Assembly: GCA_020629415.1 (NCBI GenBank)
Contig: JAHDDL010000006.1
Span: forward strand, 22,780-86,779
DNA length: 64,000 nucleotides
Direction: 5' to 3'
From: Maribacter sp.
GTDB lineage: Bacteria > Bacteroidota > Bacteroidia > Flavobacteriales > Flavobacteriaceae
Shown: positions 8,700-60,479 of the stretch, one piece after another
Numbering within the stretch: the first letter of the stretch is position 1
Layout: each line of letters starts with the position of its first letter
The notes under the pieces: model-generated
Database searches by the model: none
Seen by the model: only the letters and a program-made list of their open reading frames with translations
Told to the model about the DNA's origin: nothing
Program-made: the position numbers and the translations under genes

Positions 8700-9006
8700 T
8701 TTGAGTTGAGTTTTGTTAATATTAAATTGACTTAATCTAATTTTTAAGGATTTTTATTAATTATTAACCAATAAAACGACCTAAAAATTATTAGATTCTC
8801 AACAATTATATTAACAAGAAGTTGTGAAGGCATCCTGTACTGTACTGTAGGGATGGTGGTAAGAGGCGTCAAAAAAAATAGGGTTAAATCGTTAAATATC
8901 TGAAAGTCAAATTTTTAATAATTGTTTTTATAGTCTTGCTGCAAAAAAAATTATTATAGAAGAAAGCTTTAAAATAAGGATATGTTATTTAGGTGTAAAA
9001 ATTTGT
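8700..9006. other. Intergenic region upstream of the first SusC gene
   Basis: About 307 bases between the SusC start and the stop of the GntR-type regulator. It contains the shared motif and -7 box (8803-8847). The SusC leader is about 100 nt. No clear terminator for the regulator gene and no small ORF stood out. Confidence 0.6.
8803..8847 (-). promoter_or_regulatory. Shared regulon motif plus -7 box, SusC-SusD-FAS1 promoter
   Basis: The motif GCATCCTGTACTGTACTG occupies 8830-8847 (plus-strand reading) and contains the perfect GTA-N3-TAC core CTGTACTGTACTG at 8835-8847. In gene orientation the -7 box TATAATTG begins at 8810, exactly 20 bp past the motif edge. This is the copy closest to full symmetry in the set of seven. 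Confidence 0.75.
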
Positions 9007-10053
9007 TTAAACAGAGTGTCTGTCAATAAAATTAAAATCATTTTTTATTTCTACTCTTTTGTTTTCAACGATCATTTTAGCCGCTTCTTCACCCATTTTT
9101 TTAAAGTCTGTACTAATTACGGTTATACCCAATAATTCTTTTAAAGGTGTGTCATTGTACGATATAATGCCAATATCCTCACCTAGTTTATAATGTCTAT
9201 CTCTACTTTGTTTTACCAAATTGACTAAATCCGATTCTTCTATTATAATATATAAATCCCCCAATTGTAATTCCATGCTGTCATAAATTTCATCAAGTAT
9301 TTCGTAGTCCATATCATGTTGAATACAAAATCTCTTAAAACCTGTTACAATACCTTTAGGGTATGGATAAACACCTTTGCTAGGGTATACCAATATGACT
9401 TTTTTATATTTTGATAATTTTTCTAATCCGGCGGTAAGGGCATTATAAATATCTTCCGTAAAGTCTTGATATACTCTGCCTGCCTCTTTTGATAAACTCT
9501 TTAAATTCCGGTCCATAATGATCAGCTTTCCATTTGGTATGGAATGAATTGCTTTTAAAATATCATCGGTACAACCCATATGCTGAAGATTTTCATTTTT
9601 AAAATGAGGCATTATAACATAGTAATCGTATAAGTTTTTTTTATTTTCAATTATGTTGCTAAATACTAAAGGTTCACAGTGGTAAATATCTAAATCTACA
9701 TGGGTATTCGCATCTAGACTATTTACAAATGAATTGAAAATTCTCATTTTGTAAGTACTTAACTTATTAATAAGAAAAAGCACTTTTGCTTTTATGGTTA
9801 GATCTGTCTTTGATATGTAATACCCTTTGCCTTTTACCGATATAATTATATTTTGTTCTTTTAATAGACCGTAGGCTTTTTCTACCGTATCTCTAGAGAG
9901 TAGGTATTCTTCGCTTACCTCGTTAATTGAAGGGATTTTTTCTCCCATACTCAATACACCTTTATGGATGCTATTGATTATAGAGTCCATAACTTGTTTG
10001 TATTTAGGAATACGGGATTCAGTGTCTACATAAATATATTCAAGTTTTTTCAA
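9007..10053 (-). CDS. GntR-family regulator with sugar-binding C-terminal domain (AraR/RhaR-like)
   Basis: The protein has 348 residues. About residues 10-82 form a GntR winged helix (IPKYKQVMDSI at the start, SINEVSEEYLLSRDTVEKAY as recognition helices, VKGKGYYIS as the wing). Residues 85-348 look like a periplasmic-binding-protein fold of the LacI/AraR kind (GIVTGFKRFC, DIGIISYNDTPLKELLGITVIS). This combination senses a sugar and binds DNA as a dimer. It is divergent from the rhamnose operon and one shared motif lies in the gap between them. GntR proteins prefer GT(N)xAC operators, which matches the motif core, so it is the best candidate regulator for all seven sites; this is inference. 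No in-frame ATG precedes the winged helix, and the start is taken as TTG at 10053. Confidence 0.85.
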   Translation of the reverse strand: MKKLEYIYVDTESRIPKYKQVMDSIINSIHKGVLSMGEKIPSINEVSEEYLLSRDTVEKAYGLLKEQNIIISVKGKGYYISKTDLTIKAKVLFLINKLSTYKMRIFNSFVNSLDANTHVDLDIYHCEPLVFSNIIENKKNLYDYYVIMPHFKNENLQHMGCTDDILKAIHSIPNGKLIIMDRNLKSLSKEAGRVYQDFTEDIYNALTAGLEKLSKYKKVILVYPSKGVYPYPKGIVTGFKRFCIQHDMDYEILDEIYDSMELQLGDLYIIIEESDLVNLVKQSRDRHYKLGEDIGIISYNDTPLKELLGITVISTDFKKMGEEAAKMIVENKRVEIKNDFNFIDRHSV

Positions 10054-10162
10054 GTTGTGCGGTTTTAGTTTTATGACCTAAATTAGGGTATATACAGAAT
10101 TAATCAAATTCAAACTTATGTAATCTTTTTGGCTTTTTATTTTTTTTATCGAATTTAACTAA

Positions 10163-10207
10163 CAGTATAGTACAGGATGCGTTGTTTTTATTCATGCTCT
10201 ATTTTCG
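10163..10207 (+). promoter_or_regulatory. Shared regulon motif plus -7 box, rhamnose operon promoter
   Basis: Motif at 10163-10180 reads CAGTATAGTACAGGATGC on the plus strand, the reverse complement of the consensus. The GTA-N3-TAC core spans 10163-10175. The -7 box TATTTTCG starts at 10200, 20 bp past the motif edge. Lying between two divergent genes, the site could also autoregulate the GntR-type gene. Confidence 0.75.
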
Positions 10208-10236: not shown

Positions 10237-12336
10237 ATGCAGGTCAAAACATATAAACACGTAGATTATCTTTGGGACGAATCAAAAGCGTCAGAGCTAG
10301 GGGACAACCAGGTAGAGTTGTTTCTTTACAGGTCAAATATTTTAGGAGCAGACCTTCGTATAACAAACTTCGGTGGTGGTAATACTAGCTGTAAAACTAT
10401 TGAAAAAGATCCTCTTACAAATGAAGAGGTTGAAGTAATGTGGATCAAAGGTTCAGGTGGTGATATTGGCACTCTTACAAAAGCTGGTATAGCGGGCCTG
10501 TATACAGAGCGACTTAGAAATTTGAAGAATGTTTATGGTGGTCTAGAAGATGAAGACCGTATGGTAGGGCTGTTTAATCATTGTATTTATGATTTGGACA
10601 GCAAAGCTCCTTCAATTGACACCCCTTTACACGGTTTACTTCCTTTTAAACATATAGATCATTTACATCCTGATGCATTAATAGCGGTAGCTGCGGCAAA
10701 AAACAGCGAGAAGGTTACCAAAGAAATTTGGGGAGATACCATGGGGTGGGTGCCATGGCAAAGACCAGGTTTCGATTTAGGTCTGCAACTTGAAAAATGT
10801 TTAAATGACAACCCTGGTATTAGAGGTATTGTATTAGGTAGCCATGGTCTTTTTACTTGGGGAGATACATCATACGAGTGTTACCTTAATAGTTTAGAGG
10901 TTATTGAAATGGCCTCTGAATACATTGAGAAAAAAATTAAAGAGAACGGTAGTGTATTTGGTGGGCAAAAAGTAGAAAGTCTTCCTGAAGAAGAGCGCAA
11001 GGAAAAAGCAGCTAAACTTATGCCGTTACTTAGAGGACTTTGTTCTTCAGAAAATCAAATGATCGGTCATTTTACCGATACGGATGTAGTATTGGAGTAT
11101 ATTAATAGTAATGATTTGGAGAGATTGGCACCTATGGGGACTTCTTGTCCGGATCATTTTTTAAGAACCAAGATTCAACCATTGGTTCTTACCTTAAGTA
11201 CAGATGAGGATCTTTCCAATAGTGAAAAGGTATTGGAAAAACTTACTCCTGCATTTGAAAATTATAGAAAAGAATACGCTGAATATTACGAAAATTGTAA
11301 AAGGGATAATAGCCCTGGAATGAGGGATCCTAACCCGGTAATTATTATTTATCCTGGGGTAGGTATGTTCAGTTTTGCAAAGAATAAGCAGACTACAAGG
11401 GTGGCAAGCGAGTTTTATATTAATGCCATAAACGTAATGCGTGGTGCCGAGGCTATAACCGAGTATACATCTTTGCCAAGACAAGAGGCATTTGATATTG
11501 AATATTGGTTGTTGGAAGAAGCTAAATTACAGCGTATGCCAAAAGAAAAACCATTGTCTAGGAAAGTAGCTCTGGTTACCGGCGCCGGTGGCGGTATTGG
11601 TAAAGCTATAGCAGATAAACTTGCTGAAGAGGGCGCCAATATAGTGCTTACCGATATTGTTGAAGATCGGTTGGTTGAAGGTGTGGCAACCTACAAAAGG
11701 GATGTAGCCAGCTATGCTGTTTGTGATGTTACCAATACTGATTCTATAGCCAATGCCTTTAAAAAAGCATGTTTAGAATTCGGCGGTGTAGATATCATAG
11801 TTCACAGTGCTGGTTTGGCCATTTCCAAACCATTAGAGGAAACTACCGACAAAGATTGGAATTTGTTACAGAACGTGCTAGTTAAAGGTCAGTTTGACCT
11901 GGCTAAGCAAGGTGTTGCCGTAATGAGAGATCAGGGCTTAGGAGGTAATTTTATTAGTATAGCCAGTAAAAACGGATTAGTTTCTGGACCTAACAATGTT
12001 GGGTATGGTACCTCTAAAGCAGCGCAACAACATATGAGCCGTTTATTGGCAGCGGAACTAGGCAAAGATAAAATTAGGGTTAACGTTGTAAATCCTGATG
12101 GGGTAATTGTTGGTAGTAAGATCTGGGAAGGTGACTGGGCTGAAGGTCGTGCCAAAGCGTATGGAATAACTGTAGATGAGTTGCCTGCACATTACGCTAA
12201 AAGAAATTTATTGAACGAGATCATTTATCCAGAAGACATTGCTAACGGTGTTTTTGCCTGTGTAGGAATTTTAGACAAATCAACAGGTAATATTATTAAT
12301 GTCGATGGCGGTATGGCCAATGCATTTGTAAGGTAG
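10237..12336 (+). CDS. rhaEW: Bifunctional L-rhamnulose-1-phosphate aldolase / L-lactaldehyde dehydrogenase
   Basis: This 699-residue fusion has an N-terminal class II aldolase/adducin-like domain (about residues 25-400) with the metal-binding His pair in HIDHLHPDALIAVAA (His142, His144) and GSHGLFTWGD. The C-terminal domain from about residue 440 is a short-chain dehydrogenase with the nucleotide motif TGAGGGIG and the catalytic YGTSK. The length and order match the known fused RhaE-RhaW enzymes. The aldolase splits L-rhamnulose-1-phosphate into dihydroxyacetone phosphate and L-lactaldehyde; the dehydrogenase half is thought to oxidise lactaldehyde to L-lactate with NAD. It is cytoplasmic and the first gene of the rhamnose operon, followed by isomerase, kinase and lactate dehydrogenase. 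A strong hairpin follows its stop codon. Confidence 0.93.
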   Translation: MQVKTYKHVDYLWDESKASELGDNQVELFLYRSNILGADLRITNFGGGNTSCKTIEKDPLTNEEVEVMWIKGSGGDIGTLTKAGIAGLYTERLRNLKNVYGGLEDEDRMVGLFNHCIYDLDSKAPSIDTPLHGLLPFKHIDHLHPDALIAVAAAKNSEKVTKEIWGDTMGWVPWQRPGFDLGLQLEKCLNDNPGIRGIVLGSHGLFTWGDTSYECYLNSLEVIEMASEYIEKKIKENGSVFGGQKVESLPEEERKEKAAKLMPLLRGLCSSENQMIGHFTDTDVVLEYINSNDLERLAPMGTSCPDHFLRTKIQPLVLTLSTDEDLSNSEKVLEKLTPAFENYRKEYAEYYENCKRDNSPGMRDPNPVIIIYPGVGMFSFAKNKQTTRVASEFYINAINVMRGAEAITEYTSLPRQEAFDIEYWLLEEAKLQRMPKEKPLSRKVALVTGAGGGIGKAIADKLAEEGANIVLTDIVEDRLVEGVATYKRDVASYAVCDVTNTDSIANAFKKACLEFGGVDIIVHSAGLAISKPLEETTDKDWNLLQNVLVKGQFDLAKQGVAVMRDQGLGGNFISIASKNGLVSGPNNVGYGTSKAAQQHMSRLLAAELGKDKIRVNVVNPDGVIVGSKIWEGDWAEGRAKAYGITVDELPAHYAKRNLLNEIIYPEDIANGVFACVGILDKSTGNIINVDGGMANAFVR

Positions 12337-12355
12337 TTGTTTGTAGTTTTTTTAA

Positions 12356-12387
12356 AAGCTTTTATAGATGAAAATCTATAGAAGCTT
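12356..12387 (+). other. Intercistronic hairpin with GAAA tetraloop between rhaEW and rhaI
   Basis: Arms 12356-12369 and 12374-12387 form a 14-bp stem (one G-U pair) closed by GAAA, followed by ATTTTTAA. It lies between the first two genes of the rhamnose operon. It could be a leaky terminator, an attenuator or an mRNA-stabilising structure that sets the ratio of the first gene to the rest. Only the structure itself is seen. Confidence 0.6.
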
Positions 12388-12411
12388 ATTTTTAATGGGA
12401 AATTAATACTT

Positions 12412-13692
12412 ATGAGAGTAGACGAAAATCAATTAGACGAAATAAATAAAAAACATCTGTCCTTACATGATGAGAAATATAATTTTTTGGGCAACATATT
12501 GTCAAAACAAGGAAAAGATGTTGATGGCATCCTTAAAATGCTTGGAGATTTTCAGGTAGCCATTCCTAGTTGGGCATTAGGAGCTGGTGGAACCAGATTT
12601 GGACGCTTTGGCTTTCAGGGAGAACCTAGTACATTGGAGCAAAAAATAGATGATGTAGGTATCATTCATAAATTAACCCAAACGGCCGGGGCGATCTCTT
12701 TACATATTCCTTGGGATGTACCAAGTGATTATAAAGCTATCAAAGAAGTAGCTGCCGCTCATAATATTGTTTTTGATGCTGTCAATAGTAATACTTTTCA
12801 AGATCAAAAAAATGCTAAAGAGAGCTATAAGTTTGGGTCATTGTCAAATATTAACAAAGCTTCTCGCGATCAAGCAATAGCACATAATATAGATGTTATT
12901 AATATAGGTAATAAATTAGGCTCTAAAAGTTTAACAATTTGGTTGGCAGATGGATCTAATTTTCCTGGTCAAAGCAATTTTCAGCATGTACTTCAAAATA
13001 CAGAGGATAGTGTTAAGGAAATATATAAAGCATTGCCGGAAGATTGGAAAATGTTTATAGAATACAAACCCTATGAACCAAATTTTTATAGTACTGTAAT
13101 TCAAGATTGGGGAACGTCATTTATGCTGGCGAATGCTTGTGGCGAAAAAGCATATAGCTTGGTGGATTTAGGACATCATTTACCCAATACGAATATCGAG
13201 CAGATCGTATCAACATTGATGATGAAAGGTAAATTAGGTGGTTTTCACTTTAATGATAGTAAGTATGGAGATGATGATGTTACCGTTGGTAGTATTAAAC
13301 CTTATTCTTTGTTCTTGATCTTTAACTCTTTGGTTTACGGAATGGAAAACAATCCTCAAAATCCATATCCGGCTTGGATGATAGATGCTAGTCATAATAT
13401 TAAAGATCCTTTAGAAGATTTGATACAATCTTTAGAGGCAATTCAAGAAGCGTATGCCAAGGCATTGTTAATTGATCAAAACGAACTTGCTGCTGCACAA
13501 AAGAATAATGATGTTGTAAAATGTCAAGAAATTCTTCAGAATGCTTATCGTACAGATGTGAGACCTTTAATAGAAAAAGCAAGAGTTGGTAGAGGAGGAG
13601 CAATCAACCCTATAGAAACTTATAGAGCATTAAAAGTAAGAGAAGGTTTAATAAAAGAAAGAGGAGTGAACTCGGTAGCATCGGGATTATAA
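12412..13692 (+). CDS. rhaI: L-rhamnose isomerase, RhaI (TIM-barrel) type
   Basis: The 426-residue protein matches the RhaI type of L-rhamnose isomerase (the kind described in Pseudomonas stutzeri, rhizobia and Streptomyces), not the E. coli RhaA type. Recognisable segments are WALGAGGTRFGRFGFQGEP, ISLHIPWD, IEYKPYEPNF and GGFHFNDSKYGDDDVTVGS; acidic and His residues in the last two belong to the metal site of the barrel. It converts L-rhamnose to L-rhamnulose in the cytoplasm. It is second in the rhamnose operon; its stop codon (13690-13692) directly abuts the ATG of the kinase gene, so translation of the two is likely coupled. Confidence 0.92.
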   Translation: MRVDENQLDEINKKHLSLHDEKYNFLGNILSKQGKDVDGILKMLGDFQVAIPSWALGAGGTRFGRFGFQGEPSTLEQKIDDVGIIHKLTQTAGAISLHIPWDVPSDYKAIKEVAAAHNIVFDAVNSNTFQDQKNAKESYKFGSLSNINKASRDQAIAHNIDVINIGNKLGSKSLTIWLADGSNFPGQSNFQHVLQNTEDSVKEIYKALPEDWKMFIEYKPYEPNFYSTVIQDWGTSFMLANACGEKAYSLVDLGHHLPNTNIEQIVSTLMMKGKLGGFHFNDSKYGDDDVTVGSIKPYSLFLIFNSLVYGMENNPQNPYPAWMIDASHNIKDPLEDLIQSLEAIQEAYAKALLIDQNELAAAQKNNDVVKCQEILQNAYRTDVRPLIEKARVGRGGAINPIETYRALKVREGLIKERGVNSVASGL

Positions 13693-15075
13693 ATGAAGAG
13701 TATGAAAACCAACGTAACCGCAGTATTTGATATAGGAAAGACCAATAAAAAGTTTTTTCTATTTGACGAAGATTATCAGGAAATCTATCGAGAATATACT
13801 CGATTTGAGCCTATTGAAGATGAAGATGGTCATCCGACGGAAGATTTACATTCGTTACAGATATGGTTAAAAGAGGTTTTTGATAGAATTCTTAATGCTA
13901 AGGAACATAATATAACGGCCATAAATTTTTCTACTTACGGTGCCAGTTTTGTACATCTAGATGAAAACGGAAAAGTACTTACCCCTTTGTATAATTATAC
14001 AAAACCAATGGATGAAAAGGTTTTGAATGATTTTTATGAAAAGTATGGTCCTAAAAATGAATTTGTAAAAGCTACAGGTTCTTCTGATTCGGGTATGTTA
14101 AATTCAGGCATGCAGTTGTTTTGGATAAAACACACGAAACCGGAAATCTATGAGAAAATTGCATTTTCATTACATTTACCCCAATACCTAAGTTATGTTT
14201 TTACGGGTATTCCGTTAAGTGAATACACTAGTATTGGTTGTCATACAGGCTTGTGGAACTATGCAGATAAAGATTACCATTCTTGGGTTTACAAAGAAGG
14301 TATAGATCGTATACTGCCCCCAATTGTTTCTACTGAGACAAGTATTAATATGAACTATAATGGTAAACGCATTAAAATAGGTGTAGGTATTCATGATAGT
14401 TCTGCGGCATTGCTACCCTATGTAAGAAGTATTAAGCAAAAATTTATCTTGGTTTCTACCGGAACATGGAGTATTGCCTTAAACCCTTTTTCTCAAAAGC
14501 ACTTAACGGAAAAAGATATAGAAAAGAATTGTATTAATTACATGAGAATTAACGGCAAACCAGCGAAAGCAAGCCGTATATTTTTGGGTAATGAATATAG
14601 TTTGCAAGTAAAAAAATTGACCCAGTATTTTAATGTGCCCAATGATTATCATAAATCGGTCGCTTTTAGTTATGATACGTTTTTTGCAATAATGAAAGAT
14701 TTTAATTATTGCTTTAAATGGGAAAGTATTGCTGATAAAAATATGCCGGCAGAAACAAAATTCAATTTTGATCAATTTGAGCATGCCTACCATCAACTAA
14801 TGGTTGAGTTGGTTTTATTACAGGTAGATAGCATAAAAACTGCGGCTGGTAATGATGATATAGAGAAATTATACATAGATGGCGGTTTTAGTGATAATGA
14901 TGTCTATATAAAGCTGGTATCCCATTACCTAAGAAACATGGAATTACGTACCACAGATTCATCATTAGGTTCGGCTTTGGGTGCCGCCATTGCTATATCT
15001 GACACGAAGCTTAATTCAAAATTCTTAAAAAAGAACTACGCGTTGAAAAAACACGTTCCCTTTATTATCAAATAA
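13693..15075 (+). CDS. rhaB: FGGY-family carbohydrate kinase, probable L-rhamnulokinase
   Basis: The 460-residue protein has the two-domain FGGY sugar kinase fold: the N-terminal phosphate loop TAVFDIGKTNKKFFLF, the second phosphate region FILVSTGTWSIALNP, and C-terminal LYIDGGFSDNDVYIKL followed by SSLGSALGAAIA. FGGY kinases phosphorylate open-chain sugars with ATP. Substrate assignment to L-rhamnulose rests on position between rhamnose isomerase and lactate dehydrogenase, and on the aldolase two genes upstream that needs rhamnulose-1-phosphate. It starts directly after the rhaI stop; a second in-frame ATG three codons later (13702) is an alternative. Sequence alone would also allow fuculokinase. 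Confidence 0.85.
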   Translation: MKSMKTNVTAVFDIGKTNKKFFLFDEDYQEIYREYTRFEPIEDEDGHPTEDLHSLQIWLKEVFDRILNAKEHNITAINFSTYGASFVHLDENGKVLTPLYNYTKPMDEKVLNDFYEKYGPKNEFVKATGSSDSGMLNSGMQLFWIKHTKPEIYEKIAFSLHLPQYLSYVFTGIPLSEYTSIGCHTGLWNYADKDYHSWVYKEGIDRILPPIVSTETSINMNYNGKRIKIGVGIHDSSAALLPYVRSIKQKFILVSTGTWSIALNPFSQKHLTEKDIEKNCINYMRINGKPAKASRIFLGNEYSLQVKKLTQYFNVPNDYHKSVAFSYDTFFAIMKDFNYCFKWESIADKNMPAETKFNFDQFEHAYHQLMVELVLLQVDSIKTAAGNDDIEKLYIDGGFSDNDVYIKLVSHYLRNMELRTTDSSLGSALGAAIAISDTKLNSKFLKKNYALKKHVPFIIK

Positions 15076-15085
15076 GTAGAATTAT

Positions 15086-16234
15086 ATGTCAAAGGAATTC
15101 AATTCAGATTATCCATCTGTAGACGATTTACGAAATAAAGCAATGAGGAGAATTCCAAAGTTCGCTTTTGAGTATTTGGATGGTGGTTGTAACGAAGATG
15201 TTAGTATATCCAGAAATACTTCAGAAATACGAGAGGTTCAACTACAGCCCCGTTATCTAAGAAATCATGGTACAAGCTCCATTAAAACTAAAGTTATGGG
15301 AATGGAGTTCGATGCTCCTTTTGGCATAGCACCGGTAGGTTTACAGGGGTTAATGTGGCCAAATACACCTGCAATTTTGGCAAAGTCCGCTTTTAAGCAT
15401 AATATACCTTTTATACTTAGTACGGTAACTACTATGGATATTGAAAAGGCAAGTGAACTTACAGAAGGTAATGCTTGGTTTCAATTATATAATCCTGTAG
15501 ATGATGCTATTCGCGATGATATTATTGACAGGGCCGAAGCAGCAGGTTGTCCTGTATTGGTGTTACTTTGTGATGTTCCCACCTTTGGTTACCGACCTAG
15601 GGATTTCAAAAATGGACTGGCACTACCACCTAAAATGACCGCAGCGAACATTATGCAGATTTTGGGCAACCCTACATGGGCATTGAATACACTTAAGTAT
15701 GGCCAACCCTCTTTTGAAACTTTAAAACCTTATACTCCAGAAGGACTTAATTTAAAACAATTGGGTGCCTTTATGGACAAAACATTTTCCGGTAGGCTAA
15801 ATGAAGAGAAAATAAAGCCGATAAGGGATAAATGGAAGGGTAAATTGGTATTGAAGGGAGTAGCTTCGGAACAAGATACACAAGATGCAATACGCATGGG
15901 TTTTGATGGCGTTATCGTTTCCAACCACGGTGGAAGACAATTAGATGCGGCTCAATCAACTATAAACTCGCTGCAGGAAATTGCTGTAAAATACAGTGAT
16001 CAAATTGAAGTTATGATGGATAGTGGTCTACGGTCAGGTCCTGATATTGCTAGAGCCATGGCAAGTGGTGCAAAATTTACTTTCATGGGACGTTCCTTCA
16101 TTTATGGAACTGGAGCCCTTGGGAATAAAGGAGGCGATCACACTATTAGTATGTTGAAAACACAGTTTAAGCAGGTAATGGATCAGCTTTGTTGCGATCG
16201 TGTCGAAGATTTGCCAAACCACCTAATTAAATAA
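15086..16234 (+). CDS. lldD: FMN-dependent alpha-hydroxy-acid (L-lactate) dehydrogenase
   Basis: At 382 residues this is a standard member of the FMN-dependent alpha-hydroxy-acid oxidising family. The N-terminus (AMRRIPKFAFEYLDGGCNED), the catalytic His281 in SNHGGRQLDAA, and the FMN phosphate site (MDSGLRSGPDIARAMASGA, then FTFMGRSFIYG) are all present. It oxidises L-lactate to pyruvate and passes electrons to the respiratory chain, usually at the inner membrane face. In this operon it makes metabolic sense: the RhaEW enzyme releases lactate from the deoxy half of rhamnose. It starts 10 bp after the kinase stop. Other alpha-hydroxy acids are possible substrates. Confidence 0.9.
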   Translation: MSKEFNSDYPSVDDLRNKAMRRIPKFAFEYLDGGCNEDVSISRNTSEIREVQLQPRYLRNHGTSSIKTKVMGMEFDAPFGIAPVGLQGLMWPNTPAILAKSAFKHNIPFILSTVTTMDIEKASELTEGNAWFQLYNPVDDAIRDDIIDRAEAAGCPVLVLLCDVPTFGYRPRDFKNGLALPPKMTAANIMQILGNPTWALNTLKYGQPSFETLKPYTPEGLNLKQLGAFMDKTFSGRLNEEKIKPIRDKWKGKLVLKGVASEQDTQDAIRMGFDGVIVSNHGGRQLDAAQSTINSLQEIAVKYSDQIEVMMDSGLRSGPDIARAMASGAKFTFMGRSFIYGTGALGNKGGDHTISMLKTQFKQVMDQLCCDRVEDLPNHLIK

Positions 16235-16248
16235 AAACAACCAAAATT

Positions 16249-17661: not shown

Positions 17662-17762
17662 CTATATAGCGTATACTACTTTATTAAATACTATTGCTAT
17701 CGTAAAGCCAGACCAAATCTAGTACATTTTATTAGTTTTATTATTTAAACGTATATGGCGTT

Positions 17763-21765: not shown

Positions 21766-21777
21766 AAAACTCTATAT

Positions 21778-47545: not shown

Positions 47546-47594
47546 TATTGTTGATTTCTATTAACTAAATTACTTTAAGGTATTATGTAATTTC

Positions 47595-51501: not shown

Positions 51502-51547
51502 CAGTACAGTGCAGGATGCTTTTAAGAAAACATTAAGATAATTTTCG
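51502..51547 (+). promoter_or_regulatory. Shared regulon motif plus -7 box, PL28 lyase promoter
   Basis: Motif CAGTACAGTGCAGGATGC at 51502-51519 (reverse of the consensus, one change in the core). The -7 box TAATTTTC begins at 51539, 20 bp past the motif edge, and the start codon follows at 51563. Confidence 0.72.
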
Positions 51548-51562: not shown

Positions 51563-54500
51563 ATGAAAAAAATTACTCTTAATTCATTATTAATTTACTG
51601 TTTTACGCTTATTACACTTGTAGTTACAGCACAAAACGCACCACCCTCTGATGGGATTTTTAAATTACAAAATGTTGCTACAGGGCAATTCTTAACAGAT
51701 GCTGGAGCAAGCACATCCCCAGTTACTATGTCAGATTCAGGTGACGACCCAATCACACATTTTACATTTGTAGAAAGTGGAGACTATTATAATATAGACA
51801 GTGAAATTTCAGGGATTTTACGTGCGCCTGGCGCTGGTGGACCAGGAGGTCCCTATGTAGTTGTAAGTACCCTAAAAAATCCGCCAGCAGCGGATACCGA
51901 TAAAACGTGGTCAATACAGTATAGTGCAGCTACTGACAGCTATAGATTTGAATCTAGAACCGCGGGTAGATATTTGTATCAAAATGAAGATGGAACCGTA
52001 ACGCATTCTGAAGTTGAAGCTACAGATGATCGAAGTAATTGGAAACTTATTGCTGTTTCGGAAATTCCTGTTATACAAATTCCTGTAGGAACAACTCTTC
52101 TGTTTCAAAATGTAGAGACAGAAGAGTACTTATCCACTGCATCAGTGAGCAATCAGCCCGTAACCATGTCTGCTTCAGGAGAAGCTGAAAATACACGTTG
52201 GACGCTTGTAGAAAGTGGAGACTATTATAATATTGATAGTAAAAGTGAATCTGGTGCTACAGGAATACTGCGCGCACCAGGTGCTGGTAGTTCAGAAGGT
52301 CCTTACGTAGTTTTAGGTACGTTAAAAGCTCCGCCAGCAGCGGATACCGATAAAACGTGGTCAATAGAATATAACGGTTCCACTGATAGCTATAGATTTG
52401 GCTCTAGAACCACTGGTAGATATTTGTATCAAAATGAAGATGGAACCGTAACTCATTCTATAGTCGATGCTACTGATGATCGTAGTAATTGGAAACTTAT
52501 TCCATTTGTAGAAATACCAGAAGGGGCAGCTCCAGATGAAGATACGAATCCAGATTTATCCTGTTCAGGTGAATTTGACAATAACAGTACTAGAAATTTT
52601 GATATTCCAAACCCTGAAAATGTAGGAACTATAGATGACAGAACATGTTATTCAGATTACAGTGAAGTTTCTGTCAATGGCAAAACTTGGGGTGTATATA
52701 ATATTACCGATGGATCTAATCATATTGATGCGCCTAATACGTTACAACCCAGAATGGAGCGTTCTTTAAACAGATCTCAAGAAACTGGTGTTGGAAGTTT
52801 TGCAAGGTTCAAAGGAATTGTAAGAATATTAGAAGTAGGTGATGCTGGTTCTTTTAACCAAGACGGGAGTTACTTAATACAAGCCAAAGGTAAACATACA
52901 GGTGGCGGAGGCTCAGTAGACCCTGCAATCTGTTTGTATTTGGCAAAGCCCGTTTATGGTACGGGTGAAGATGCAGATAAGCAAATAGCCTTTGATATTT
53001 ATGCAGAACGTATTTTAGAACGAGGAGGATCAGGTAGCGGTAGAGAAGTTGTATTCTTAAAACAAGTAGCTAAAAATGCGGAAATTGATTTTGAATTAGA
53101 GATTGGGTTTAGAGCTGATCCAAACGATGCTTCAAAAAAAATACATTATTGCGATGCGGTTATTGGTGGCGAAGCCTTTAAATGGAATATTCCTGACCCA
53201 GAAAGAGGACTGCAATCTGGTATTAGATATGGTGCCTATCGTGTAAAAGGTGGACGAGCTCAAATAAGGTGGGCAGAAACTACCTATGAAAAAGCAGAAG
53301 TAGTAGATGAAAATCCTAATCCAGGTCCAGAACCAACAGTTGATGTTGTTGCATTAAGAAATGTAGAAACAGGAGAATTCTTAACCGCTGGAGCAGGAAG
53401 CACTCAACCTGTTACCATGTCAGTTTCAGGTGGAGCGGAAAATACAAAATGGACGTTTGTCAAAAATGGAGCTTTTTACAATATAGATAGTGAAAGCGAA
53501 AATGGAGGAACCGGAATTTTAAGAGCACCTGGTGCTGGTGGTCCTGGAGGGCCTTATGTAGTTGTAAGTACTACAAAAGCCCCACCAGCAGGTGATACCG
53601 ATAAAACCTGGATTATATATTATGACGAAACTAAAGATACATATCGATTTGAATCTAGAACGTCTGGCAGATATCTATATCAAAATGAAGATGGAACGGT
53701 AACACATAGTAAAGTACCTGCAACAGATAATAGAAGTGTATGGGAAGCTATACCACCAGGAGAACCTTTACTATTAGAATTAGTTTCCACAAATGTTAGC
53801 TGCGCCGGAGCAGATGATGGTACGGTCAGTGTTTCGGTTACTGGAGGAATAGCACCATATAATTATTTATGGAGTTCTGGTGAAACAACGGAAACCTTAA
53901 ACAATCTTGCAGCAGACACCTATTCCGTATCGGTTACTGATGCTTTAAATGCTACCATAACGGCAAGTACAGAAATAACCGCACCTAGTAATATCGTCGT
54001 GACGGTATCAGATAATGCAGTATTGTACGCAGGATATGATGGAGCAGAACACTGTGCTACCATTGGAATAACAACCGTTACAAGTGGAGAAGGGCCATAT
54101 AATTTTGCATGGAGTACGGGGAAAACAACTGAAATGATTGATGTTTGCCCAGATAGTACACAAACCTATACGGTAATTGTAACAGACGCTAATGGCTGCG
54201 AAGCAACCGCGGAAATTACGGTTGAAGTAATTGATGTAAGTTGTGGAACAGATAACAACCCAAAGATACTTATTTGCCATAAGGGTAAAACAATTTGCGT
54301 TGCACAAACGGCAGTAAAAGCACATTTAGAACATGGGGATACACTGGGAGCATGCACTGGAGATTCAAATAATGCAGAATTGAGTATACGTACTTATCCA
54401 AACCCATTTACGACTTCTATAAAAGCCATCATTGATACCAAAAAAAATAGTACGGTTAAATTACTTCTGTTAGACAATAGCGGTAATAGCATTGCTGAAA

Positions 54501-54631
54501 AAACACAGCGCATTAAGAAAGGTATCGAAACAATTGAGTTATCAATAAATACCTTGCCAATAGGTACCTATTATTTGCAGGTTTATATAAACAATGAACT
54601 TTATAGTTCGGAAATTTTTATTAAAAATTAA
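51563..54631 (+). CDS. Secreted PL28-like ulvan lyase with three beta-trefoil-like modules and T9SS sorting domain
   Basis: This 1022-residue protein starts with a signal peptide (residues 1-24). Two related modules at 31-163 and 176-313 contain [31 protein letters not shown] and look like RICIN-type beta-trefoils. Residues 334-576 resemble the PL28 ulvan lyase jelly roll: [72 protein letters not shown] third trefoil-like module is at 594-731, an SprB-like repeat at 739-808 and a weaker one to 890, a small Cys/His module with [10 protein letters not shown] and [11 protein letters not shown] at 900-931, and a type IX secretion sorting domain (YPNPF) from about 940. It would cleave ulvan outside the cell by beta-elimination. 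It is a single gene with its own copy of the shared motif and a terminator. Confidence 0.85.
51653..52501 (+). repeat. Tandem module repeat inside the lyase gene (copies 1 and 2)
   Basis: Copy 1 covers about 51653-52051 and copy 2 about 52088-52501. They share exact DNA blocks: 36 bases at 51881-51916 and 52331-52366, and nearly 40 bases around 51965-52003 and 52415-52453. A third, more diverged copy lies at about 53342-53755, beyond the catalytic domain. The identical blocks point to recent duplication or gene conversion. Confidence 0.75.
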
Positions 54632-54984: not shown

Positions 54985-56085
54985 TTAAACCCTTTCTAAT
55001 TTTATAGGATAGCTGTTATTGGCATTCCATTGACATACGTATAAATTTTCATCATTATCAACACAAACATCATGACAGTGTTTAAATATTTGTTCTTTTT
55101 GAACCATTCTTTCTAATTGACCCTTTTTATATTTAGGTTCAACGCCACCAGGATTTGAAACTACTTTTCCGGTTTTATCTAGAATTGTTATGAATCCAGA
55201 ATTTGGACTTGTGCGTGTTGGGTGTGTATCTGCATTTCCCTCAATATAGTCAGTTTCAGAAGACCAACATACACCGGCATAGAGGTTGCTTTTATGAATA
55301 ACAGGTCGGCATACGAATGCACCAGGTAAATCTATTTGTTCAATAAACTTGCCATCAAGTGTAAAACGTTTAAAACAATTGGTAGCTCTAGATGTTATTA
55401 GTAGGGTAGGCTGTCCCTTTCCTCTATAATCTATACAAACACCATGTGCGGTTTGAAATTGGTTTTGACCAGTACCGCGTCCTTCTCCAATTTTACGTAT
55501 AAATTCACCATCTTTAGTAAATTGTAATATATAGTTAGAACCGTAACCATCAGCTATATAAATATCGCCATTAGGGGCAATGGCACTTTCTGTGGGTTTA
55601 AAATTGTCATTGACATTATACGCACCATATTTTGATGGATGGCCTATAATCATTAGTTCTCTACCGTTGATGGTGGTTTTAATTACACTTTCTCCCTTAG
55701 TATCACATATAAACAAAAAGTCTTCTGAACCATCGTTCCATAAAGATAGACCATGACCACCATTATAGCGAATACCCCAAGCATCTAAAAGTTTACCGTA
55801 TTTGTCATATATTAAAACATTGTTATGGGTATCATCACCAACCATGATGAGTCTACCTTGAGAATCCATAACCATTTCATGACAGTTTTTTACAGGCGTA
55901 CGGCTTTTGTCTAAATTCCCCCAATCTTTATGAACTCGGTATTTGAAATCACTGTGGCCAATAATGGTTTCGTATAATTTTGGTTTTGATTTTATAATAT
56001 TAAAATGAGGGGTACAAACTAATCCTAAGCCTGCTTTTGCAGATCTGTTCAAGAAATACCTTCTATTGATTTCTATTTTTGACAT
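54985..56085 (-). CDS. Tat-exported NHL-type beta-propeller protein
   Basis: The 366-residue protein starts with a twin-arginine type signal (INRRYFLNRSAKAGLG), so it is probably folded before export. The remainder has repeated blades of NHL/six-bladed propeller type: SRTPVKNCHEMVMDSQGRLIMVGD, NVLIYDKYGKLLDAWG, SAIAPNGDIYIADGYGSNYILQFTKDGEFIRKIG, QNQFQTAHGVCIDYRG and HCHDVCVDNDENLYVCQW. Conserved His pairs (CHEM, CHDV) could bind metal. Close families include the propellers fused to peptidyl-amidating lyases, but no enzyme activity can be assigned. It is the last gene of a three-gene operon, 5 bp after the DUF1501 gene. Confidence 0.75.
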   Translation of the reverse strand: MSKIEINRRYFLNRSAKAGLGLVCTPHFNIIKSKPKLYETIIGHSDFKYRVHKDWGNLDKSRTPVKNCHEMVMDSQGRLIMVGDDTHNNVLIYDKYGKLLDAWGIRYNGGHGLSLWNDGSEDFLFICDTKGESVIKTTINGRELMIIGHPSKYGAYNVNDNFKPTESAIAPNGDIYIADGYGSNYILQFTKDGEFIRKIGEGRGTGQNQFQTAHGVCIDYRGKGQPTLLITSRATNCFKRFTLDGKFIEQIDLPGAFVCRPVIHKSNLYAGVCWSSETDYIEGNADTHPTRTSPNSGFITILDKTGKVVSNPGGVEPKYKKGQLERMVQKEQIFKHCHDVCVDNDENLYVCQWNANNSYPIKLERV

Positions 56086-56090
56086 GATGA

Positions 56091-57566
56091 TTATACGTTC
56101 TTGGTAATCTGTTCTTTTGTATTTGGCGTTTTGCCGAATAAATCTAAAATAGGTTCTCCCTTACCGTCTGGTGTGGTATAAAAGGGTCTACTTTCTATTT
56201 CATAATGTGTTTGTGAATCTATGCCCAAAGCATGATATATAGATTGGTGTACCTGATCGATCACTACAGGTTTTTCAATAGAAGCGCATGGTCTTTCGTC
56301 TGCAGTTTTGCCATACACTAGTCCTTTTTTGACGCCACCGCCCCACATTAAGATAGAACTACCATCTGTAAAATGACGATGCATTCCGTAATGCTTTTCA
56401 TGTTCAATAACATCTGGTTGATTTACTTGGTTTTTAACAAGTTCTCCTGGTCTACCTTCCATAATGGCATCACGACTAAATTCACTGGCGAGAATTACAA
56501 GTGTTCTATCTAAATGACCCGTTTCGTCTAAATCCTTTATTAGTTGTGCTATTGGTCTATCTATTAGTGCCTTCATTTTTTTAAGTCGTGTGTGTCCATT
56601 TTCGTGGGTGTCCCAACCTAAGAAAGGTTCATATTCTGTAGATACACTAATGAATCTTCCGCCATTCATGGCTAATCGTTTTGCTAAAAGGCAACCCAAT
56701 CCAAAACGACCTGTATTGTAGGTATCATAAACCTCTTTTGGCTCTTCCGATAAATCAAATATTTTAGCTTCGGGTGAGTTTAGCAGGCGATAGGATTGCT
56801 CCATAGACCGCATTAAGGATTCTCGCTGATAATCGCTGCCCTGTTCCATTATTTTACTTTTATCGGTCAACTCCTTATAAAGTTTGTAACGTGCCTCGAA
56901 CCTTTTAAGAGACATACCTTTAGGAGGTCTAACACTATCAAGACCACTTGAAGGGTCCGGTATTAAAAAAGGACCATATTCCGCACCTAAAAAACCTGCG
57001 GAATGAAAAGCCTTCAACTCTTCTGATTCTCCCATTGTAAAACGTTGTCCCATAGCTATGAAAGGTGGTACTACGGGATTGGAAGGACCTAATTCTTTAG
57101 CTATCCATGCGCCTATGTGTGGTGCTTGTACCGATTGTGGCGGCTCATAGCACGTATGCCAATGATATTGGTGGCGAGTGTGTAAAATATGACCTAAATC
57201 TGCTGATTTATATGATCGTATAATGGCACCTTTGTCCATAACATTACCAATTGATTGTAGACCTTCTGAAAAATCCAATCCGTCTACAACGGTAGGTGCT
57301 TTAGGAAAAGTACTCAACACCCTTTTACTTTCTACCCCTTTTTCATATGGTACATAAGCCTTAGGGTCAAATGTTTCTGTATGGGCCATGCCACCTGCCA
57401 TCCAAAGTAATATAACGGTATCTGCACTAGATGCTATTTTCTGTACTTCTGGAGAACATGAACTTAAAAAACTGGTCACGGGAATAGTTGTAGCTGCTGC
57501 CGATAAACTTGCGGCGCTCATTTTTTTTATAAAATCTCTTCGTGAGTTTTGTGAATCCATTTTCAT
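56091..57566 (-). CDS. DUF1501 family protein, Tat-exported (alkaline-phosphatase/sulfatase-like fold)
   Basis: The 491-residue protein has a twin-arginine signal (QNSRRDFIKKMSAASLSAAA) followed by SSCS. Family features are VILLWMAGGMAHTETFDPK near residue 50, GRFISVSTEYEPFLGWDTHENG, TLVILASEFSRD and KHYGMHRHFTDGSSILMWGGG. DUF1501 is distantly related to the alkaline phosphatase/sulfatase superfamily, and the Asp/His residues in WDTHENG, EFSRD and HRHF fit a metal site. The sulfatase-type Cys nucleophile motif is absent. In Planctomycetes these genes pair with DUF1549/DUF1553 cytochrome genes, as here, where it starts 4 bp after the DUF1553 stop. Function unknown; hydrolysis of a sulfate or phosphate ester on ulvan is only a possibility. 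Confidence 0.85.
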   Translation of the reverse strand: MKMDSQNSRRDFIKKMSAASLSAAATTIPVTSFLSSCSPEVQKIASSADTVILLWMAGGMAHTETFDPKAYVPYEKGVESKRVLSTFPKAPTVVDGLDFSEGLQSIGNVMDKGAIIRSYKSADLGHILHTRHQYHWHTCYEPPQSVQAPHIGAWIAKELGPSNPVVPPFIAMGQRFTMGESEELKAFHSAGFLGAEYGPFLIPDPSSGLDSVRPPKGMSLKRFEARYKLYKELTDKSKIMEQGSDYQRESLMRSMEQSYRLLNSPEAKIFDLSEEPKEVYDTYNTGRFGLGCLLAKRLAMNGGRFISVSTEYEPFLGWDTHENGHTRLKKMKALIDRPIAQLIKDLDETGHLDRTLVILASEFSRDAIMEGRPGELVKNQVNQPDVIEHEKHYGMHRHFTDGSSILMWGGGVKKGLVYGKTADERPCASIEKPVVIDQVHQSIYHALGIDSQTHYEIESRPFYTTPDGKGEPILDLFGKTPNTKEQITKNV

Positions 57567-57570
57567 GATT

Positions 57571-60402
57571 TTAATTGATAAATTGAAATTCTGGTGACAT
57601 TAAAACAGCCCAAAAGGTATCTTGTAATTGTTCTGTTTTAGGCGTATTCGTTAACGCACTTAGCATAAGTGATTTTTCTTCATTAGTTGGTGGCCTATTA
57701 AATGCTCTTTTATAAACGTTGTCAATGATTATTGCACTATCGTTGCCATGGTTTTCTAGCCATGATTGTGCTCCTTCTTCTAAAATTGTATTGAAGAATT
57801 CTCCATTTGTAAGCTCTAAAGCTTGCAATAACGTAGCTTGGTCTTCTCTTGATGTAGTTACTATTTCTCTACTTGGCCTACCTAAAGCTTTCATAAAAGG
57901 ATGCTGTTTTACTAAACTTGCACGGGTAAATTTCTCATTATGGGGTTTAAACGTAAAATCAAGTAATTGTCCCCAGTTTTTAAAATTGCCGGTACTATAA
58001 TTCCTAACGTTCATCCATGAGCTATCATCGTAATCTATGGCAACCCAATTTCCTTTTGGTAGCTCACGTGAACTTAACCAGGTTTCGTCAGATTTTATGA
58101 GTACACTTTTGCCAGACTCATAATCTAATTTTAAAGCGAACAATATACCGGCAGGGTTTGCTATGACACCACCGTTTTCCCCTATAATGGCTATCGTATT
58201 TTTACCTGTTATCAAGAATTGGGTTATGTCTATTTTATCTACTGCTTTCCAATTTTTATTTTGAAATATTTTTTCTCCATTAATATACAGTTCATAAGAA
58301 TTATCGACCGAAATTAGTATCGTTCCTTTTTTCAAAGTCTGTTGGGTTACGTTAAACGATTTTCTGAAGTACCTTTTTCCAGGTTCAGGTAGAACCACCC
58401 TTTCCAACTCCTCTTCCAAATGCCAAATTCTTATTGCCTTTATATCATCACCGTTGGGATTAAATGCCGCTTGTGGGTACATTGGTGCAATAATTTGACT
58501 TACGGCATCTGAAAATTGTTCTGCACTAAGCCTGCGTGTTACTGGACCTTTAAACACATATTCTGTCTTTAAATCTTCTTCTTTCTTATAATTGACAATT
58601 GGTAATTGGTATACCTTAGATGTCATTATACGCTTTATTAAGTGTTTTAAATCTGCACCTGAATCAATAAAGTCCGCTGATAGCCAATCAAGCACATTGG
58701 CATCCCATGGTGCATTATCCATTTCGTCCAAAGGTTCTACGATACCACGCCCCATTAATCGATGCCAAAATCTATTGGTTAGAGTACGGTAGAGCCTTCC
58801 ATTGTCTCTTTGTACCATTACCTCTGCTAGCTTCAGTAATCTATCTTTTACTGTCTTACCTTCAACACTTCCTAATTCAGGATATAGGAAATTAGCTTTT
58901 GCCATTTTACCAATAGGTTTGTCACAGCGGTTGAGCTCTAGTATAGAGTCAGAAAAAATTGTTGCAAAACCGTAAGCCTGGTCTAGGGTCAAATTACTTA
59001 CAAAGCTATTATGGCAAGAGGCGCATTTAACATTTACCCCCATCAGAGATTGTCCAATATTTTGAGCTGCCTGCATTTCTGTTCTTTGACTTGCATTGAC
59101 TACACCTCTCCATTTTACGCCGTTAATAAAGCCTTCTGATCCTTTTATGGGGTTCACCAATTCTGTGACGATCTGGTTATAAGAGTTATTGGCCATCAAT
59201 GATTTATACAACCACTCCGTAATGGGTTGTTTTCCACCAACACTATAATAATCATTGCGTAAAAGATCGTTCCAAAAACTTAGCCAATGCTGTGTGTAAT
59301 TTTGATTATCGTTAAGTAAAGAATCTATTAGTTCTTCTCTTTTGTTACTATTGTTGTTCGTTACAAAAGAGTCAACTACTTTAGGTTCGGGTAGTAGACC
59401 AATAGCATCCATATATACTCTTCTAATAAAAGTTCTATCGTCTATAATCTCTTCCCATTCAATATTGTTATTATCAAAATAAACATCTATTAGTTTGTCT
59501 ATGGGGTGTGTAATATCTTGTTGGTTTGGTAAATTGGGTTTTGTCAAAGACAATTCAGCTTCAGGAAATACTTTAAGGGCTTGATCAGACCAATGTGCAC
59601 CTTCATCGATCCAAAGTCTAACAAGTTCTATTTCATCTGCAGTAAGTAGTTTGCCTTTGGTTGGCATAACATCTTTATGACCGGCCGGAAGAATAATTCG
59701 TTTATAGATTTCACTTTCTTTTGCATTACCGGGCACAACTGCCAAACCAGTTTCACCACCTTTAAAGACACCGGCTTTATTTTCAAGAACTAATTCACCT
59801 TTCTTTTTGTTCTCTCCATGACACTGGTAACACTTATGGGCAAAAATACCCCTTACCTCAAGATTTAATTTATCTTTTTGTAAGATAGAAAGTGAATCGG
59901 CAGATTTTAAGTCCTGTAATAATGCAACTGTATTTTCGTTGTCATATTTTGTATTATTACTTGGTAATACAGCTGTTAAATAATCTTCTCCATGTGTAAG
60001 GTTTGCGCCCAAATGACCTGCTACGCTAAGTAAAACAATTGTTATGGTAAAGATGAATCTATAAAGGGTTAGTTTTTTTGATTTACGTAAACTGTAATTT
60101 AAAATTAATGCCGTTGCTAGAGCGAGTACAGCGGTAGCTATACCAGTATATTGATGGTTATCTACTAAATTACCGGCATAATCTTCTTGTGTTTTTAATA
60201 ACCATCCTACTATGGCAGAGAGTATAGCAAAAAAAGCACCAATATATACCATGAACTTAATACCTTCTCTAAGAGAATTTCTTTTGCCTTTAAGGGTAAG
60301 TAGTTCTAAAACAAAAGAAACAACTAATAATCCTATAGGAAAGTGTACCAGCAAAGGGTGCAGCCTGCCTAAAAGTTGAAGTATCCAATTTGAGGTTTCC
60401 AT
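57571..60402 (-). CDS. Membrane-anchored c-type cytochrome / DUF1549-DUF1553 protein with inserted jelly-roll domain
   Basis: The 943-residue protein begins with four membrane helices (about residues 12-36, 47-68, 86-104, 112-132; DUF2231-like, with the start RLHPLLVHFPIGLL). A cytochrome-c-like domain follows with haem motif CYQCH (191-195) and a likely distal Met246 in DVMPTKG. DUF1549 covers about 300-490 with a second CxxCH (CASCH, 460-464). DUF1553 segments lie at about 535-640 and 825-940. Between them (about 655-815) is a jelly-roll domain with ISVDNSYELYINGEKIF and ITGKNTIAIIGEN, as found in the sugar-binding domains of GH2 and GH78. The layout suggests an inner-membrane, periplasm-facing redox protein. 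First gene of the operon with DUF1501 and the propeller; the shared motif lies upstream. Confidence 0.85.
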   Translation of the reverse strand: METSNWILQLLGRLHPLLVHFPIGLLVVSFVLELLTLKGKRNSLREGIKFMVYIGAFFAILSAIVGWLLKTQEDYAGNLVDNHQYTGIATAVLALATALILNYSLRKSKKLTLYRFIFTITIVLLSVAGHLGANLTHGEDYLTAVLPSNNTKYDNENTVALLQDLKSADSLSILQKDKLNLEVRGIFAHKCYQCHGENKKKGELVLENKAGVFKGGETGLAVVPGNAKESEIYKRIILPAGHKDVMPTKGKLLTADEIELVRLWIDEGAHWSDQALKVFPEAELSLTKPNLPNQQDITHPIDKLIDVYFDNNNIEWEEIIDDRTFIRRVYMDAIGLLPEPKVVDSFVTNNNSNKREELIDSLLNDNQNYTQHWLSFWNDLLRNDYYSVGGKQPITEWLYKSLMANNSYNQIVTELVNPIKGSEGFINGVKWRGVVNASQRTEMQAAQNIGQSLMGVNVKCASCHNSFVSNLTLDQAYGFATIFSDSILELNRCDKPIGKMAKANFLYPELGSVEGKTVKDRLLKLAEVMVQRDNGRLYRTLTNRFWHRLMGRGIVEPLDEMDNAPWDANVLDWLSADFIDSGADLKHLIKRIMTSKVYQLPIVNYKKEEDLKTEYVFKGPVTRRLSAEQFSDAVSQIIAPMYPQAAFNPNGDDIKAIRIWHLEEELERVVLPEPGKRYFRKSFNVTQQTLKKGTILISVDNSYELYINGEKIFQNKNWKAVDKIDITQFLITGKNTIAIIGENGGVIANPAGILFALKLDYESGKSVLIKSDETWLSSRELPKGNWVAIDYDDSSWMNVRNYSTGNFKNWGQLLDFTFKPHNEKFTRASLVKQHPFMKALGRPSREIVTTSREDQATLLQALELTNGEFFNTILEEGAQSWLENHGNDSAIIIDNVYKRAFNRPPTNEEKSLMLSALTNTPKTEQLQDTFWAVLMSPEFQFIN

Positions 60403-60434
60403 ATGATAAGTCTTTGTCTTGGTTTGTTGAAAAC

Positions 60435-60479
60435 TAAACTTATCAATATTTTTTTATGGCAGTATCCTGTAGTATCTGT
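60435..60479 (-). promoter_or_regulatory. Shared regulon motif plus -7 box, DUF1553-DUF1501-propeller promoter
   Basis: Motif GTATCCTGTAGTATCTGT at 60462-60479; the left core half CTGTA is intact and the right half degenerate. The -7 box TAAGTTTA begins at 60442 in gene orientation, 20 bp from the motif edge. The start codon at 60402 is about 35 bp on. Confidence 0.68.

Follow-up and report, generated by a model that had tools for sequence, protein, structure and literature searches.

Bacillus subtilis AraR, in which a GntR-type winged helix is joined to a LacI-like sensor domain, is a sugar-responsive one-component regulator of a catabolic operon and binds a palindromic operator. As described, it is a repressor (PMC4666351). 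In Bacteroidota, control of polysaccharide loci is attributed mostly to glycan sensors (hybrid two-component systems, HTCS, and SusR) and to extracytoplasmic function (ECF) sigma factors, and the GntR-family sugar regulators FucR (BT1272) and ManR (BT2103) serve fucose and mannose (PMC3878776). Rhamnose catabolism in Bacteroides is activated by RhaR (BT3768), with a single predicted target operon (PMC3878776, PMC3870299); this protein is AraC-type (PMC3878776) and unrelated to the regulator treated here. In the available part of PMC3870299, the regulators given for rhamnose belong to the AraC, DeoR and LacI families, and the term GntR does not occur; one of them, Chloroflexus RhaR, controls a rhamnose regulon as a DeoR-family repressor on tandem TCGAAA repeats and is released from DNA by L-rhamnulose, not by L-rhamnose. 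Direct-repeat operators are known exceptions among GntR proteins: FarR, NagQ, NanR and the MocR proteins GabR, TauR and PdxR bind direct repeats through a GntR winged helix, with dimers in head-to-tail order proposed for MocR, but their effector domains and repeats are other than those described below, and the available part of the review describes no invariant distance to a -7 box (PMC4494728). For ulvan, polysaccharide utilization locus (PUL) H of Formosa agariphila holds a GH78-sulfatase hybrid, GH3, GH105 and a dehydratase, in an account that, in its available part, covers enzymes and not a regulator (PMC8511951). The present analysis concerns a stretch of 64,000 nucleotides from Maribacter sp. 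(assembly GCA_020629415.1, contig JAHDDL010000006.1, positions 22,780 to 86,779; hereafter the window), in which a GntR/LacI-type one-component regulator lies among the operons of an ulvan locus. This sensor probably binds a direct repeat, takes the place of the -33 promoter element and so activates an ulvan regulon.

The regulator gene and the promoter modules of the window are given below, with operon extents taken from gene order alone.

Regulator gene: 9007..10053, minus strand; 348 aa, TTG start; GntR winged helix plus LacI/periplasmic-binding-protein-like sensor.
Promoter module 1: 8803..8847, minus strand; direct repeat CAGTACAGTA-CAGGATGC, 19 nt, -7 box TATAATTG; before SusC/SusD, 8699..4004.
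Promoter module 2: 10163..10207, plus strand; CAGTATAGTACAGGATGC, 19 nt, TATTTTCG; before the rhamnose operon from 10237.
Promoter module 3: 20504..20548, minus strand; CGGTATAGTACAGGACAC, 19 nt, TAATTTTA; before a GMC oxidoreductase, 20481..18781.
Promoter module 4: 25617..25661, minus strand; CAAGATACTACAGGATGC, 19 nt, TAGACTTG; before uronate genes, 25470..20584.
Promoter module 5: 51254..51298, minus strand; CCATATAGTACAGGATAC, 19 nt, TACATTGC; before the GH78 run, 51211..39850.
Promoter module 6: 51502..51546, plus strand; CAGTACAGTGCAGGATGC, 19 nt, TAATTTTC; before the PL28 ulvan lyase, 51563..54631.
Promoter module 7 (weakest): 60435..60479, minus strand; ACAGATACTACAGGATAC, 19 nt, TAAGTTTA; before 60402..54985.

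An earlier note on this DNA had listed seven sites upstream of seven operons and set a GntR/AraR-like gene beside one of them; the gene in fact stands between two (8830 and 10163), and module 2 occupies the divergent gap between it and the rhamnose operon. Its winged helix (residues 17-80) matches PF00392 (E 6.9e-13, 48.5 bits, cut-off 27), and its C-terminal sensor matches PF13377 at 27.0 bits, barely above the cut-off of 26.5. The predicted structure (mean predicted local distance difference test score, pLDDT, 87.9) has a LacI-type fold, with RbsR, CcpA, AscG and LacI as matches in the PDB search, and among PDB sequence matches the AraR DNA-binding domain comes third (4egy, E 3.7e-9). The 348-aa protein has no HTH_18 or HTH_AraC match at E<=0.001, and so is not the AraC-type RhaR of Bacteroides; nor does it have an aminotransferase Pfam match, and the MocR-type NCBIfam models (PdxR, EhuR, MocR, YczR, GabR) align to residues 3-89 only, far below their cut-offs. 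The regulator of Maribacter huludaoensis M208 is identical to it in sequence (100%). For this protein we propose the name RhaR-type GntR. In the open-licence literature, excluding supplements and RegPrecise-type tables, we found no account of a GntR-type rhamnose regulator of Flavobacteriia, of its repeat or of the fixed position of that repeat. Tandem pairs of the regulator gene, whose copies lie side by side and are each 54-59% identical to the query, were seen in several genomes (L043, L047, L048, L054, and the same places in L073, L077 and L082).

The sites were searched with the pattern GYATCCTGTACTATACTG, permitting up to three mismatches and taking the expectation from shuffled sequence. 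Six of the seven listed sites match it in the window, with 0, 1, 2, 2, 2 and 3 mismatches (0.04 expected). The site at 60462-60479 is the weakest, having more than three mismatches and a leave-one-out score of 14.8 against 19.2-28.1 for the other eight sites of this genome; it reaches E 0.0074 in a 45-column profile built from 58 sites, but belonged to the training set of that profile. The earlier observation is confirmed, and the fixed geometry holds for all seven: in gene orientation, 19 nt separate the motif from the -7 box, and the TA of the box lies at +37 from the first base of the motif (7/7). Across the genome (3.9 Mb, 81 contigs) the pattern has 17 matches, and a reversed control pattern has none. 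Eight lie on the contig of the window, C40, and the two of these beyond the window (C40:119224 and C40:125862), which were unused in defining the geometry, both have TA at +37. The other nine lie on other contigs, each with three mismatches; none of the five inspected has TA at +37, and one (on C45) is inside a long open reading frame (ORF).

A genome-wide scan had been suggested in the earlier note as a check, and the profile search provides it, with E-values that are rough, a profile partly trained on the sites that it recovers, and site counts that are lower bounds. Eleven matches have E<0.02, nine of them training sites and two new (C40:110932 and C40:103765), and all 11 lie on C40, the ulvan contig (127.9 kb of 3.9 Mb). 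Every one has TA at +37, and the transcription start, estimated as 5 nt past the -7 box, falls 12-142 nt upstream of an ORF. The next match has E 0.46, and the matches from E 0.46 to 7.7 (C40:117673 and matches on C42, C70, C73, C3 and C9) were treated as noise. The sites thus form a single regulon with one promoter module, as had been proposed, although seven was too low a count: judged from sequence, the regulon has at least eleven promoters and reaches about 39 kb past the right edge of the window.

Each site reads CAGNAY-n4-CAGGAY, and in the aligned sites identity between positions 10 apart is 0.67. Among couplings between positions (151 sites, 153 pairs), the direct-repeat pair 3/13 ranks first (z 15.5), and 5/15 has z 4.4. 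Relatives were examined in the flanks of 53 gntR copies of at most 50% identity, chosen without the motif, with a repeat counted at 7 or more of 8 identical positions. A direct repeat of period 10 occurs in 34 of the 53, any other period from 8 to 23 in at most 6, and in 20 base shuffles period 10 averages 2.5 with a maximum of 5; the 19 copies without a repeat include seven of 45-50% identity (L130-L136). When the repeat was anchored to the -7 box, a test evaluated on these 53 copies alone, period 10 at offset 37 was found in 16, and other periods at any tried offset in at most 3; offsets 35, 36 and 38 give 14, 14 and 13, so that in this set the frame is not fixed to one base. Many close copies score no repeat owing to a mismatch between their half-sites at position 3 (CAGT vs CAGG), which also smears the offset histogram (34 at 37, 28 at 38, 25 at 39). 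In a set of loci outside the family, which includes some loci of the family, period 10 is found in 11/26 and the next best period in 6/26, a weaker signal than within it. A period-5 reading was also considered (identity 0.61; 24/95 gntR copies vs 41/95 for period 10, a few being counted twice) and set aside as a by-product, since the commonest form of the site is CAGTACAGTACAGGA and other half-sites do not show period 5.

Two loci have unusual arrangements of the repeat. At L069:18353-18390, four successive CAGGAY half-sites stand at 10-bp steps before one -7 box, which again suggests a 10-bp direct repeat as the unit. Near the gntR start of L108, one repeat (TACCAGTACCTACCAGT) is accompanied on either strand by a correctly spaced -7 box and possibly serves two divergent promoters.

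The position of the repeat relative to the -7 box was followed in relatives with an 18-bp matrix made from the nine own sites and holding no -7 information. Counts here and below are not independent, since they take in related species and loci of shared genera, with a few genomes entered as two records. At a score of at least 15, TA...T lies at +37 in 50 of 59 matches in 40 relatives' loci (next best offset 32, with 10). In 55 named flavobacterial loci it does so in 60/87 further sites (next best 38, with 14), and in 15 loci titled outside Flavobacteriia or without a closer name, labels that are record titles, in 19/22. Eighty named loci were available, of which ten had been excluded beforehand, mostly as records of genomes already used and, for L194 and L203, on a guess. 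Pooling all loci without exclusions at a score of at least 14, and thus including L185, which nearly duplicates the locus of the window, gives +37 in 151 of 202 distinct sites, against a mean of 8 and a maximum of 23 at other offsets. In 66 aligned sites the 19-nt spacer has no conserved column, which argues for function, rather than recent copying of a block, as what maintains the distance. The -33 element has the consensus TTG/TTTG; no -33 consensus appears in the spacer columns of the 66 aligned sites. The -7 box of F. psychrophilum extends from -12 to -5 (PMC9723704), which places the motif at -49 to -32 and its second half-site over the -33 element. A site of invariant position overlapping the -35/-33 element, which characterises a class II activator, is therefore what the own sites (11/11) and three quarters of the pooled relatives' sites present.

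The site is tied to the protein by co-occurrence. Of the 397 family genomes, 167 encode a homologue of the regulator at E<=1e-30 and 94 have profile sites at E<=0.01. A site is present in all 79 genomes with gntR at E<1e-100 (at least 412 sites, median 4) and in 15 of the 318 others (Fisher 1.7e-68, kinship ignored); at least 53 of the 79 contributed no training site, and in 14 of the 15 the best site has E above 1e-3. Of 247 genomes of the phylum, some shared with the family set, a site at E<=1e-3 is present in 11, each of which also encodes the protein (E<=1e-20); 3 of the 12 with gntR at E<1e-100 (G154, G408 and G564) have no site at E<=1e-3, G154 having one at E 0.0013 and G564 having its gntR near a contig end. 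A first scan of 30 four-kb gntR loci found a site with the geometry in 25.

Half-site sequence was then compared with the recognition helix of the regulator in 185 distinct relatives, by searching gene flanks with TA...T at +36 to +38. Helix classes and half-site patterns were set after viewing the table of relatives, with up to two substitutions permitted. Proteins with the helix EKAY have CAGNAY/CAGGAY in 89 of 121 cases (31 none, 1 other), those with V(R/K)AY have CAGAAY twice in 9/9, those with LxA(F/Y) have CTRGTA twice in 24 of 35 (6 none, 5 other), and those with AEKGY have CATRAC twice in 3/4. On this comparison helix and half-site change together in relatives, which, with the co-occurrence, points to the GntR/AraR-like protein as the binder that the earlier note had suspected. 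The genome's own paralogues L057 and L058 (31-32% identity) lack a CAGGAY module; a single period-10 repeat (7/8) is present at L057, with no -7 box at the right place.

The mechanism that we infer, in binding, in activation rather than repression, in ligand and in promoter use in the cell, is as follows. The sites would be operators of the adjacent regulator, two of whose DNA-binding domains would occupy two head-to-tail half-sites offset by exactly one 10-bp step. Given the fixed distance to the -7 box, the half-sites would lie at about -49 and -39, with the downstream one over the position of the -33 element. A product of rhamnose catabolism would bind to the LacI-like sensor domain in the cytoplasm, and the ligand-bound protein would position primary-sigma RNA polymerase at promoters without a -33 element, jointly switching on rhamnose and uronate catabolism, two SusC/D pairs, PL28, GH78, GH106 and sulfatase genes. 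Since the spacing is invariant and the -33 element missing, the evidence leans towards a class II-type activator, a choice between activator and repressor that the earlier note had left undecided.

Several points weigh against this proposal. LacI-type sensors are mostly repressors, and -33 elements are generally weak in Bacteroidota, which makes their absence soft evidence. B. subtilis AraR, the nearest characterised protein with these two domains, is a repressor (PMC4666351). In some diverged relatives the repeat lies just upstream of gntR itself, an arrangement that fits negative autoregulation too. Fifty-one of the 202 pooled sites lack TA...T at +37, five of the 30 four-kb loci (L040, L043, L044, L047 and L048) have no site of the right geometry, and no module was found in the flanks of 31/121 EKAY and 5/6 ERAY copies. 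The 15 site-bearing genomes without a close gntR exceed the roughly 3 expected by chance at E 0.01: nine are among 88 genomes with a diverged homologue, three of these being training genomes (G064, G357 and G222), and six are among 230 without a homologue (2.3 expected), all with single sites at E>0.002. Coupling 3/13 owes its first rank to five CAGAAC-type sites, position 13 hardly varying in the CAGGAY type.

The same binder on the same repeat could instead be a repressor, the apo-protein covering the -33 region and blocking polymerase until it is freed by a rhamnose metabolite. Such a protein would be equally well served by a site over -33, and AraR and the repeats upstream of gntR speak for it; a repressor would nevertheless tolerate varied distances, yet the spacing is exact in 151/202 pooled sites and in 19/22 of the non-Flavobacteriia or unplaced ones, and no -33 element remains to be hidden. 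We regard repression as the main rival, though an unlikely one. The earlier note had read the site differently, as a palindrome CTGTA-N3-TACTG following the GT(N)xAC rule, a form typical of GntR operators according to the review PMC4494728. Inverted pairing centred at position 6 does reach 0.62, near the direct-repeat identity, but pair 1/11 of the arms is complementary in 0 of 66 sites, and the 14 strongest of the 153 couplings include no inverted pair. In the flanks of the 53 diverged copies, which keep the direct repeat, inverted repeats number 3-22 and no spacer stands out. The middle four bases vary in the sites of PL28 loci (for example AAAA, AGTT) with both half-sites intact, and certain of these sites, such as CAGGACAAAACAGGATAG, have no palindrome centre; nor does the site read as the GntR-typical NyGTNxACNy, which is not a strictly defining form. 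Because the half-sites follow the recognition helix in the 185 relatives, the palindrome is further lowered, and we hold it to be very improbable.

Two other explanations would leave the GntR protein without its role, and each has next to no probability. Binding by the HTCS of the locus, with the GntR protein a bystander, would agree with the direct repeats of Bacteroides HTCS motifs (PMC3878776) and with the presence of the HTCS gene, whose product has an AraC-type helix-turn-helix (HTH), in the locus itself. The site, however, follows gntR in 79/79 genomes and its half-sites follow the gntR helix, whereas the SusC/D operon adjoining the HTCS has no site; HTCS-like genes occur in 7 of 105 gntR stretches, a weak test, as the window's own HTCS, 16 kb from gntR, would escape it. 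Motif and -7 box might also be the two boxes of an alternative sigma factor, for which a fixed distance is typical, rather than an operator and a promoter. The -7 box is nonetheless the primary-sigma TAnnTTTG (PMC9723704), and the upstream half varies in step with the recognition helix of the GntR protein, strong sites being nearly confined to protein-bearing genomes.

Activation through the direct repeat may extend beyond this locus, with the Bacteroidota GntR/LacI-type subfamily consisting of promoter-locked activators on helix-matched 10-bp repeats. The repeat of each sensor would stand at the same place before a TAnnTTTG promoter without a -33 element; sensor and operator would form interchangeable cassettes, of which the rhamnose member captured the ulvan locus and seeded one module over at least 11 of its promoters. 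This wider proposal is tentative, with chances just short of even, being made less likely by the ERAY copies and the copies of 45-50% identity without a repeat.

The earlier note had proposed a regulon keyed to a degradation product rather than to the polymer, and gene neighbourhoods bear this out. Among 105 stretches of up to 21 kb around gntR relatives, some of them two records of one genome, 90 hold rhamnose catabolic genes, and none of these holds a PL28 or GH78 match; regulator and site thus stand beside rhamnose genes across species, as the site at 10163 does in the window. A close gntR is present in 19 of 20 family genomes with PL28 vs 60 of the 377 others (Fisher 1.2e-13), and the median number of sites is 8 in PL28-bearing genomes vs 4 in the other 60 genomes with a close gntR (one-sided P 0.00016). 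One PL28 locus of 2.7-3.8 kb was taken from each of the 20 genomes (40 matches listed); a site with the geometry (score >=12), whether or not it faces the PL28 gene, is present in 14 of these loci and absent from 6. Given these neighbours and the excess of regulator and sites in PL28 genomes, the protein looks like a general rhamnose regulator that has been extended over the ulvan locus where that locus is present. Its inducer would most likely be L-rhamnose or L-rhamnulose, and Chloroflexus RhaR would be a precedent for the latter.

The genes behind the modules are consistent with this role. The central catabolic operon, by Pfam/NCBIfam matches, is:

Rhamnose operon: 10237..18737, plus strand; six genes.

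It begins with a bifunctional rhamnulose-1-P aldolase/short-chain dehydrogenase (RhaD-type), an L-rhamnose isomerase-like protein (RhaI-like) and an FGGY kinase, the last two being assigned by best NCBIfam matches that both fall below the NCBIfam cut-offs. An FMN-dependent (flavin mononucleotide-dependent) dehydrogenase, a 470-aa protein and a GFO/IDH/MocA protein follow. Module 4 has an estimated leader of 142 nt before genes for SDR, UxuA, KduI, SDR and DUF4861 proteins, and module 5 precedes a run from GH78 to GH3 with a GH88/105-type protein, an alginate-lyase-type protein and RhaM. Beyond the window, modules precede SusC/D and the next gene (module C40:119199), a 640-aa protein of no assigned family with GH78 and a sulfatase (C40:125835), a sulfatase-GH78 fusion (C40:110932), and a group of a GH115_C-type protein, ThuA, an unassigned protein, four sulfatases and two GH106 (C40:103765). 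The enzymes of Formosa PUL H have counterparts, by protein family, in or beside the window.

A further regulator lies within the locus:

Hybrid two-component regulator (HTCS): 25893..30005, plus strand; AraC-type HTH; adjoins a second SusC/D pair, 30204-34741.

The profile has no match at this SusC/D pair or at the HTCS (25893-34741). Since the pair lies beside the HTCS without a module, control of the locus seems to be two-layered, with a second layer that is separate and presumably polymer-sensing. In the first layer, the lyase, rhamnosidases, sulfatases and SusC/D importers appear to be under the same cytoplasmic monosaccharide sensor as rhamnose catabolism, and the locus would therefore respond to an intracellular product. 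A code from recognition helix to half-site, together with the fixed position, would make the regulon readable from sequence in genomes with this protein; the modules could serve as ready material for testing how class II activation works with the unusual sigma factor of Bacteroidota, and the regulator as a possible native rhamnose sensor for ulvan biotechnology.

Some proteins of the locus merit separate mention. The 470-aa protein of the rhamnose operon (16249-17661, plus strand) adjoins the regulator in 55 of 105 loci and has no Pfam/NCBIfam match; it is perhaps an unrecognised rhamnose transporter or enzyme. Other proteins without such a match are encoded in the window at 42648-45278 (876 aa), 47595-48368 (257 aa) and 3261-3974 (237 aa), and elsewhere at L020:17859-19781 (640 aa) and L019:12225-14708 (827 aa). 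Two 3-keto-disaccharide hydrolase proteins (window 956-2344 and L019:17935-19311) occur in the same locus as GMC and GFO/IDH/MocA oxidoreductases and ThuA, which suggests a possible oxidative 3-keto-glycoside route beside ulvan breakdown. The genes behind module 7 encode a PSD1/DUF1549 protein, DUF1501 and an NHL protein; a Planctomycete-type PSCyt1/PSD1 cytochrome protein with DUF1501 (54985-60402) thus lies in a flavobacterial polysaccharide locus, under the weakest of the modules.

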